From positions 62,001 through 126,000 of the forward strand of contig DASXFZ010000060.1 in assembly GCA_036489315.1 (NCBI GenBank): a stretch of DNA of 64,000 nt. Reading direction: 5' to 3'. A model generated the notes under the pieces. The model searched no databases and was not told the origin of the DNA. It saw only the letters and a list, made by a program, of their open reading frames with translations. This stretch comes from Candidatus Cybelea sp. Its GTDB lineage: Bacteria; Vulcanimicrobiota; Vulcanimicrobiia; Vulcanimicrobiales; Vulcanimicrobiaceae. Positions 5,763 to 50,795 of this stretch are shown in pieces. The translations under genes and the position numbers were made by a program. Position 1 is the first letter of the stretch, and each line of letters opens with the position of its first letter.

Positions 5763-7220
5763 TCAGGGGAAGTCGGCGCCGGCCAACGTTGTGTCGGCGC
5801 CCTTCCACAAATCGTTGAAACGCACTCGCGCGCGCTGCGCGGCCGCATTCTGCCCGGCCGCGGTTAGCGCCGTAGCTAGGCCGTAAAGGGCGCGCGGGTC
5901 GTTCGGGTACGCGGCGAGCGTCTGCGTAAACGCAGCGATCGCTGCGGCGTTATCGCCGCGCCGAAGTTGGAAGAACCCGAGCGCTTCGCCGGCGGGAATC
6001 AGTGGGATCAGCTCGCCGGAATACGTCGCGGCTTGGTTATCAGCAGCCTGCGTGAGCAGGCGCTGCGCATCGCCGTATTTCCCTTTTGATTCGGCCATGC
6101 GCGAGAGAAGGAACTGCGGCAAGTATCCATGGTTCGAACCGAGTGGGAGATGGGTGACAGCGCTGGTCGCTTCAGCAGCACGGTTCAGATGCAGGGCCGA
6201 AAGTCCGCGGACGCTGGGATTGCCGTAGGATGCCTCAGGTGCGGCGTAGGCGCTTGGATAACGGCCGAAGCGCAGCGCCGTCAAGGCGCCGAGACTCGAG
6301 TTGTACGCTCCGCTGATGCGTTGCGACCACAGGCGAGCGGTCTCGTAGTTTCCGAGCATGAGGGCTGCCGAGTAGCCGACCATAATATCGTGCTTTACGT
6401 AGCGGTTCGCGTGCTGGGTTCCGGCAGGCGTCTCTTCCAGCTTCTGCAGCGCGTCGTAGGAGCGTTCGCTCGAAGCGAGCGCAGCGGCGTAATCTCCCGT
6501 CTCGATCCAATAGTGCGCCGGCATGTGCGTGAGGTGTTCCGCTTCAGCTGGAAAGGCGGCGGCGTCGAGGCGCTGCGCGCACGGAAGGGCGGGCCGGCGA
6601 TCGGGAGCGAGGTCGTAGATGTGTACGCAGAGATGGTTCGCCATCGGGTTACGCGGGTCACTTTGCAAAACGGCCCGTACGAGTTCTAGCGCGGTTCGGG
6701 ATTCGTCGCTCGAGAGCTGTCCGTTCTGCCAGTTGAGGCCACCATGTTCCAGCAGCGCCTCGGCCGCGAGCAACTTTGCGTTCTCGTCGTTTGAGGACTG
6801 GGCGAGCGCGAGCATCGCAGTCCGATAGGCCGCGTCGTCGTGTTGCCAGTCCGCAAACGTTCCGGCGTAGCGCGTCGCCATGATTTCGAGGTACTTCCGG
6901 TCGCTCGGCGACGCCCCGGCTTCCAAGGAGACGGCGTGCCGGATGGCGCCCTGCGCCGCGCCAAACTGCGCGGCGGTGAGCGGAGTATTGAGGTCGGGCC
7001 CGTCGGCGAGGGCGATTCCCCAGCCGGCCATCGCGAGGCCCGCGTCGCGCGACGCAGCTTCTTCAAAAGCTCGCGCCGCTTCGTCGCCGTTATACGCATA
7101 ATAAAGGAAGAGGCCCCGGTCGATCGCCGCCTGTGCGGCCGGAACGTTCGTCGATACCGGGAGGTGAACCGAGGCAGCCGCCGCTACCACGACGGCAATC
7201 ATCAGGGTGGGAAGGGTCAC
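5763..7220 (-). CDS. Secreted tetratricopeptide-repeat protein
   Basis: 485 residues from the GTG at 7220. GGAG lies 11 bases upstream, and longer frames would run backwards through two tRNA genes, so they are rejected. An N-terminal hydrophobic segment (LMIAVVVAAAASV) is a likely signal peptide. The mature part has repeated TPR-like helical pairs. It includes the YAYNGDEAARAFEEA and MAGWGIALADGPDLN motifs typical of a widespread TPR family of unknown function, and C-terminal TPRs (AIAAFTQTLAAYPNDPRALYG). It probably acts in the periplasm or at the cell surface as a protein-binding scaffold. It stands alone, convergent with the small gene at 5564. Confidence 0.85.
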   Translation of the reverse strand: MTLPTLMIAVVVAAAASVHLPVSTNVPAAQAAIDRGLFLYYAYNGDEAARAFEEAASRDAGLAMAGWGIALADGPDLNTPLTAAQFGAAQGAIRHAVSLEAGASPSDRKYLEIMATRYAGTFADWQHDDAAYRTAMLALAQSSNDENAKLLAAEALLEHGGLNWQNGQLSSDESRTALELVRAVLQSDPRNPMANHLCVHIYDLAPDRRPALPCAQRLDAAAFPAEAEHLTHMPAHYWIETGDYAAALASSERSYDALQKLEETPAGTQHANRYVKHDIMVGYSAALMLGNYETARLWSQRISGAYNSSLGALTALRFGRYPSAYAAPEASYGNPSVRGLSALHLNRAAEATSAVTHLPLGSNHGYLPQFLLSRMAESKGKYGDAQRLLTQAADNQAATYSGELIPLIPAGEALGFFQLRRGDNAAAIAAFTQTLAAYPNDPRALYGLATALTAAGQNAAAQRARVRFNDLWKGADTTLAGADFP

Positions 7221-49722: not shown

Positions 49723-49890
49723 CTAGGAGTCGGTCGGGTTATGCCAAATTCTCGTCTCTGCGCCGCGTTTTGTCGGAATACGTCGTTGCTCTTCGCTCGC
49801 AAAGCGCTGCTTTTGTCGCTCATCGCGCCTCGTCTTCGAACAAAATTCGGCGCCAAATCCGAAAATTGCCATAACCCGACAGACTCCTAG
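49723..49890. repeat. 168-bp imperfect palindrome (MITE-like) upstream of rpsB
   Basis: The left arm from 49723 reads CTAGGAGTCGGTCGGGTTAT and the right arm, read backwards from 49890, CTAGGAGTCTGTCGGGTTAT. They match over 27 bases with two differences, then again at GCGCCG-nn-TTTTGT. The halves stay complementary with mismatches to near the centre. No coding frame is seen inside. With the adjoining bases at 49891-50021 it fills the gap between the methyltransferase and rpsB. No clear target duplication was found. Confidence 0.8.
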
Positions 49891-49907
49891 GAGCCGCGCG
49901 GTTCGCG

Positions 49908-49916
49908 TGCTATAAT
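49908..49916 (+). promoter_or_regulatory. rpsB: Extended -10 promoter of the rpsB operon
   Basis: TGCTATAAT at 49908-49916 is a perfect extended -10 box. No good -35 box lies 16-18 bases upstream, where the palindrome at 49723-49890 ends. Transcription would start near 49923, giving a leader of about 100 bases. Confidence 0.75.
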
Positions 49917-50021: not shown

Positions 50022-50795
50022 ATGAGCGTCGTCACCATGCGCGAGCTTCTGGAGGCGGGCGTCCATTTCGGACACCAGACCCGCCGCTGGAACCCGAAGA
50101 TGAAGCCGTACATCTTCCAAGAGCGCAACGGTATCTATATCATCGACCTCGCGCTGACCGTGCAGAAGCTGCGGGAGACCTACGAGGCCGTTAGGGACCT
50201 CGCGCGCGCGGGCCGGGTCATTCTCTTCGTCGGCACCAAGAAGCAGGCACAAGACGTCGTTCGCGAAGAGGCCGAGCGCGCGGGCACGTATTTCATCAAC
50301 CAGCGTTGGTTGGGAGGCACGCTGACCAACTTCGCGACGATTCAGAAGCGGATCGCCCGTTTGCGTGAGCTCGAGAATATGAAGCTTCAGGGCGACTTCG
50401 AACGCCTGCCCAAGAAAGAGGTCGCGAACCTTCAAGACGAGATGAACCGCTTAGAGCGCTTCCTCGGCGGCATCAAAGACATGCACCGCCTGCCCGATGC
50501 AATCTTCGTGGTCGATCCGAAGAAAGAACGCATCGCGGTACTCGAAGCCCGCAAGCTGAAAATCCCGATTATCGCGGTGATCGACACAAACTGCGATCCT
50601 GACGAGATCGACTATCCGATTCCCGGCAACGATGACGCGATCCGCGCCGTCAAGCTGATGGTCGGCAAGATCGCCGACGCGATCATCGAGGGGAAGACGG
50701 AGAGCGAGAGCGCCTACGATCAAGGAGCCTATGAGGAGCCGGCGCCGTCGTACGGCGAGGAAGCTGCCCCAACGATGGCGGAGGCGGGACGTTGA
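50022..50795 (+). CDS. rpsB: 30S ribosomal protein S2
   Basis: 257 residues, ATG with AAAGG upstream. Typical S2: [27 protein letters not shown] at the N-terminus, [24 protein letters not shown], and [25 protein letters not shown] near residue 185. The C-terminal tail is acidic with Tyr and Glu. First gene of a ten-gene cluster; TTGA overlap with tsf. Confidence 0.98.

Follow-up and report, generated by a model that had tools for sequence, protein, structure and literature searches.

Bacterial MITEs are usually viewed as shortened versions of individual insertion sequences. Among the palindromic repeats that have been described, the closest analogue of the element reported here is MRSC-65-2, a single covarying stem with more than 20,000 representatives in diverse phyla that is marked by a UYCCGG repeat, reaches dozens of copies per genome and sometimes lies near a transposase gene; in the accessible part of that report, which covers 250 mobile or repeat candidates, the authors leave room for the structure being important as DNA (PMC11109978). 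The ERIC (IRU) sequences of enterobacteria are described, in the accessible part of their source, as a TA-flanked palindromic MITE (PMC2229807). GTAG and CGTC REPs are small palindromic repeats of several phyla, and the accessible part of the corresponding study places some of them as dimers inside longer palindromes and reports CGTC repeats to be without a dedicated transposase (PMC3733652).

We analyzed a 64,000-nt stretch of DNA from Candidatus Cybelea sp., called the window below, in which a long palindrome lies next to the rpsB promoter, and found in it a 43-nt core that also occurs, across many phyla, within MITEs whose ends are unrelated. Like MRSC-65-2, these elements form a long single stem with strong covariation and occur in diverse phyla at dozens of copies per genome. 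According to the accessible text, MRSC-65-2 is defined by its UYCCGG repeat, whereas TYCCGG was present in 2 of our 91 core regions, its complement in 6 of 91, and a double occurrence in 0 of 91. Going by the accessible part of that study, the core may be another of its 250 candidates, and we therefore make no claim to first sight of the motif. The center of ERIC, GGAGC-hairpin-GTGAC (E. coli, L248:301-344), is similar to the core's inner block; ERIC differs in length (127 bp), and membership in that family was rejected, the match of our covariance model R1 (see below) to an ERIC copy being nonsignificant (5.7 bits, E 0.31 over 644 bases). REPs, in the accessible description, are units of 20-40 bp with an unpaired GTAG or CGTC tag, whereas the present element is ∼160 bp long, with TA duplications and a G.A-rich core; judged against that description, the element sequences carried no unpaired GTAG or CGTC tag on a 20-40 bp hairpin. 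In the main texts of the open-license literature, we found no recognizable description of the core. A search of the open-license literature, including the accessible parts of PMC10969869, PMC3733652, PMC8632094, PMC6429828, PMC2229807 and PMC11109978, likewise yielded no description of the near-fixed geometry, the strand asymmetry or the exchange between ends of different transposase families reported below. Overall, we read the window element as a MITE mobilized in trans at the edge of the rpsB promoter and belonging to a core-sharing class, with a folded strand that may aid its own spread; we give this whole account a probability of roughly 0.6.

Boundaries and copies of the element

The 168-bp imperfect palindrome at 49723-49890 proved real, with 60-nt arms that are 75% complementary and 48 nt between them. 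Two details of the initial annotation needed correction: the 27-base ends, described as differing at two positions, differ at three (10, 22 and 26; 24 of 27 identical), and the interval between 49890 and the -10 box (TATAAT, 49911-49916, plus strand) is 20 bases rather than 18. Read together with its relatives, the element proper spans 49726-49887 (162 bp) and is bounded by TA dinucleotides. The left TA duplication (49724-49725), recognized from the sequence and the flanks of other copies, is followed by the left arm (49726-49783, plus strand), which has the terminal repeat GGAGTCGGTCGGGTTATG and runs for 58 nt to the core. The conserved core, GCGATGAGCGA-hairpin-GAGCGAAGAGCAACG on the G/A-rich minus strand, occupies 49784-49826, and the right arm (49827-49887, plus strand), whose terminal repeat reads GGAGTCTGTCGGGTTATG as the reverse complement, measures 61 nt to the core and is followed by the right TA duplication (49888-49889). 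Both strands fold into a single hairpin, the plus strand as RNA with a z of -7.6 and the minus strand as DNA with a z of -8.8, each equaled by 0 of 200 shuffles. A 160-aa frame overlaps the element, which we read as open by chance only, and the element is noncoding. At the 23 element-bearing loci scanned, no Rfam family scored above its gathering cut-off at the element; the sole match above cut-off in these loci was a tRNA elsewhere in L209.

The suggestion that the palindrome may be a MITE was backed by its copies, its relatives in sister species, the TA duplications, empty rpsB sites and, in a sister species, an IS1182-family element whose ends are the same. The genome-wide copy search that had been proposed found four to five copies in the host genome at 90-93% identity, the number depending on whether the partial copies that end contigs C27 and C32 are a single one split by assembly. 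DNA matches were detected in 17 of 60 genomes, the host included, some of them in the core only. Copies are flanked in the form Y-TA/GG...CC/TA-R, where the slashes mark the element ends; the duplication is TA because the flanking bases differ between left and right. The element is thus shorter than ∼300 bp and noncoding, with terminal inverted repeats, a target-site duplication, dispersed copies and empty sites, and we hold with high confidence that the palindrome is a MITE and that its core has the structure described below. As a MITE, it is an ordinary member of its kind.

Position at the rpsB promoter

Downstream of the element lies rpsB (50022-50795, plus strand, 257 aa), preceded by the -10 box and, 17 bp from it, the presumed -35 hexamer TAGGAG (49888-49893, plus strand), whose first two bases are the right TA duplication. 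A -10-like box was present in 21 of 21 rpsB loci compared, with TTGGAG or TTGGAC exactly 17 bp upstream of it in 9 of 21. The earlier proposal that the palindrome supplies the -35 region does not hold for the hexamer, which lies outside the element except for the duplicated TA, and stands only for the sequence upstream of the -35. The MITE as a source of the -35 box was accordingly mostly rejected, TAGGAG occupying the position that TTGGAG or TTGGAC has in the nine loci. Since the right TA duplication is the start of TAGGAG, the insertion adjoins the hexamer without shifting it and without changing the spacer or the -10 box. The 162-bp MITE entered a TA at the upstream edge of the promoter, sparing these parts, which explains the odd promoter neighborhood in the window.

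A check for empty sites found the palindrome at the rpsB locus of the window only and not at the 20 other loci of the 21; by eye, from the sequence, three of the empty loci (L106, L107 and L111) retain the same upstream gene. We also considered a regulatory role for the palindrome in the rpsB operon, as a leader or attenuator, which its position next to the promoter might suggest. It lies upstream of the -10 box and therefore outside the rpsB transcript, is missing from the 20 compared loci and has further copies elsewhere in the genome, so that a regulatory leader of rpsB was rejected and such a role seems hardly conceivable. The initial annotation had set a MITE against a conserved structure, and both are true here: no palindrome is kept at rpsB, while the core is kept across phyla as a mobile structure. 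A scan of 30 rpsB loci with R1 picked up the core in L117, at another place, as well as at the window locus. This second core (L117:2997-3072, 74.3 bits; G018, another genus of the family) lies ∼0.7 kb downstream of rpsB and represents an independent insertion near the same operon.

Distribution of the core

Element positions 59-107 match sequences elsewhere at up to 98%, and the arms do not match there. A core pattern with free positions was found in at least 117 stretches of the species-level genome collection. By their record titles, the matches listed fall in Pseudomonadota, Acidobacteria, Verrucomicrobia, Elusimicrobia, Myxococcales, Bacteroidetes groups and Eremiobacterota, and also in Acidimicrobiia, Patescibacteria, Thermodesulfobacteriota, Gemmatimonadales, Bacteriovoracaceae and Nitrospinota; in any of these groups, a lone find in a binned genome may come from a misplaced contig. 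For three phyla, Pseudomonadota, Myxococcota and Bacteroidota, the core is confirmed by named isolates.

The covariance model R1, built on an alignment of 69 sequences (71 nonredundant ones minus a few, plus that of the window), matches the window at 49768-49842 with 70.9 bits and finds such elements across phyla. It counted 78 copies in Thiodiazotropha endolucinida, 26 in Azotobacter chroococcum, 8 in Pseudomonas sp., 10 in Sphingomonas sp., 15 in Endozoicomonas sp., 13 in Nannocystis pusilla and 28 in Phaeodactylibacter xiamenensis, with the highest numbers, 130 and 136, in two binned genomes. Matches were present in 74 of 148 genomes sampled from the phylum of the window, including the host, where they fell at MITE copies only. 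The viral contig collection held only three core-pattern stretches (L347, L348 and L349), against the at least 117 of the genome collection.

Structure and covariation of the core

The minus strand of the window carries the core as GGxGCGAnGAGn'GA-hairpin-GAm'CGAmGAGCRACG; the search pattern left n, n', m', m and R open and did not include x. We counted pairs in 90 of 91 distinct cores, L061 having been dropped for want of the full pattern and L138, L170 and L171, which are simple GAGCGAC repeats, having been excluded before the first counts. Positions n and m form a Watson-Crick pair in 78 of the 90 (shuffle mean 30.2, maximum 49), and n' and m' do so in 66 (mean 33.9, maximum 51); x and R are C-A in 71 and A-G in 16. 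Held-out cores, from which matches in L215 and L237 were dropped as simple repeats, gave the same picture, with Watson-Crick pairs in 28 of 31 for n-m (shuffle mean 12.8, maximum 22) and 23 of 31 for n'-m' (mean 15.6, maximum 21). The shuffles keep the relatedness of the cores, a point that the held-out cores and the occurrence in many phyla answer in part. RNAalifold, unaided, recovered an equivalent stem, isolated pairs included. Over the whole named structure, 81.6% of cells were paired compared to 58.5% after shuffling, and the covariation score was 0.559 compared to at most 0.195 when the structure was slid.

Between the Watson-Crick pairs lie tandem blocks of GA over AG, which we take to be sheared G.A pairs, as in such motifs generally. 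In this structure, the G/A-rich strand alone folds into a tandem G.A stem with covarying Watson-Crick separators and a variable hairpin cap.

Strand asymmetry, geometry and exchange of cores

We compared mismatches between the arms on the G/A-rich strand in 61 representatives of the elements that passed a 55% arm filter (129 of 139). There were 228 G.T and 113 A.C mismatches (p 5e-10), G.T exceeding A.C in 45 elements and the reverse holding in 10. No asymmetry of this kind is expected from a duplex repeat alone, and from the excess of G.T the G/A-rich strand therefore appears to be selected to fold alone. The excess fits RNA and single-stranded DNA alike and does not separate them.

The core is internal to all of these MITEs, and its distance from the ends is nearly constant. 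Ends were found for 58 of 165 core sites, many of which are the same site in overlapping loci; the others had diverged, were truncated or lay at the edge of a contig. Among the 58 end pairs are a few inner TA matches, with arms of 41-51 nt. A clean single-unit end pair was obtained in 37 of 140 unique contexts. In these 37 single-core elements, the left arm measured 60-61 nt in 28 and 57-62 nt in 30, despite unrelated end sequences, and the other 7 were read as inner TA matches. Elements of ∼265 bp contain two cores, the second inverted, and fit an arrangement of 59+44+59+44+59. In L225, two cores 161 bp apart (6956-7030 and 7117-7191) have the same orientation, unlike the usual inverted pairs. 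The left arm is 85-86 nt instead of 59 nt, ∼27 bases more, in L137, L172, L190 and L218, from Thiodiazotropha-type symbionts.

Cores and arms do not travel together. The core of the window is identical at 42 of 43 positions to those of L048, L049 and L050, whose arms agree with the window arms at ∼50%, no better than shuffled sequence. Conversely, sister-species loci L028 and L031-L036 have a left arm of the window type (47-50 of 55-56 positions) with a different core (34 of 44). Since cores are shared without arms and arms without cores, core and ends have separate histories. Cores pass between MITE families by recombination, including families with IS1182- and IS5-matching ends.

A shared core could also reflect common ancestry only, one old element being the source of all copies, with no present function. 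Between families, however, the arms have diverged to chance level while the core retains invariant positions and compensatory pairs, and arm length is retained without arm sequence. We consider ancestry alone very improbable.

Role of the core

The G/A strand showed no clear bias relative to the sense of flanking genes in three sets (++ 23 and -- 15, after removal of 43 elements that a crude ORF overlapped; 10 and 12; 20 and 11). A replication-strand bias, suggested by 13 of 39 elements on the positive-skew strand (p 0.053), was not reproduced in a second set (25 of 55). An excess between converging genes, 27 compared to 9 between diverging genes by crude ORF calls, was also set aside, with 9 compared to 8 and 12 compared to 10 in the other sets. 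From the lack of a clear gene bias and of a reproducible replication-strand bias, we place the role of the core in the element rather than in its neighbors.

Our best guess, held at somewhat less than even confidence, is that the core is a hairpin cap serving the spread of the element itself. The folded strand, as single-stranded DNA or the arm of a cruciform, would cap the long palindrome, and the cap would let a host factor tolerate or use the hairpin during replication or transposition. Alternatively, the core may work as RNA, a stable transcript of the G/A strand, made from neighbors or from the element, that shields transcripts, takes part in their processing or acts in trans, so that selection is on the RNA. 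The preference for G.T pairs on the G/A strand, a column pair (30-50) that is G-U in 43 of 69 sequences and invariant loop letters resembling those of structured RNA are consistent with such a role. The absence of a clear orientation bias, the position of the G/A strand antisense to both neighbors in the window and the lack of a matching Rfam family argue against it, leaving an RNA role possible but short of probable. For studies of how long palindromes survive and spread in bacteria, the core narrows the target to one base pair and a few G.A blocks.

Transposases and element ends

In a sister species (G008), locus L319 encodes a 466-aa transposase with the Pfam domains DUF772 and DDE_Tnp_1 that belongs to NCBIfam NF033551 (IS1182; 280.3 bits compared to a cut-off of 270). 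It is flanked by the ends TAGGAACCTGTCGGAGT and TAGGAGCCTGTCGGAGT, which match the MITE family of the window, and 16 bases of its right end are the same as in L043, a MITE of the same end family. On the evidence of these sequences, the MITE and an autonomous IS1182 element of a sister species have their ends in common. Judging from end similarity, an IS1182-family transposase would most likely have moved the MITE in trans through its terminal repeats; a search of the draft host genome yielded no autonomous partner. The window element is like IS1182-family MITEs in being short, noncoding and present in several copies, with TA-flanked terminal repeats as in the sister-species element. It differs in that its interior is not a remnant of an autonomous element: L319 is without the core, and the core recurs with unrelated ends. 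In nine tested transposase loci, L319 among them, the core had no significant match (best E 0.035).

A further MITE, L199, agrees over its first 16 bases with L317, a locus with an IS5-family transposase. With the IS1182 match, the ends therefore point to at least two transposase families. For Thiodiazotropha, an autonomous partner searched for by end sequence was not found among the matches listed, of 182 ends. An Azotobacter element matched five records of the plasmid collection, two of which were inspected and had no annotated transposase beside the match; a Sphingomonas element had no match in that collection. Four draft genomes with 39-136 core copies (G060, G067, G068 and G071) gave 0-1 match to the two Pfam families DDE_3 and DDE_Tnp_1.

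More speculatively, the core may be a transposase-independent, exchangeable propagation module, recruited in many phyla by MITEs of unrelated transposases, with the fold, ∼60 nt from each end, recognized by a conserved host factor of replication, repair or RNA. We think this rather unlikely; if true, a host factor and not the transposase would set which small palindromes multiply. That a conserved, covarying, strand-specific core has been swapped among IS1182-type, IS5-type and other ends suggests that successful MITEs are selected by something other than transposase. At the ends of contigs C1 and C2 of the host genome (L298 and L301) are two 85-aa fragments of DDE_3 (IS630-type) that score equally and fall short of the family cut-off; they may stem from a repeat that broke the assembly.
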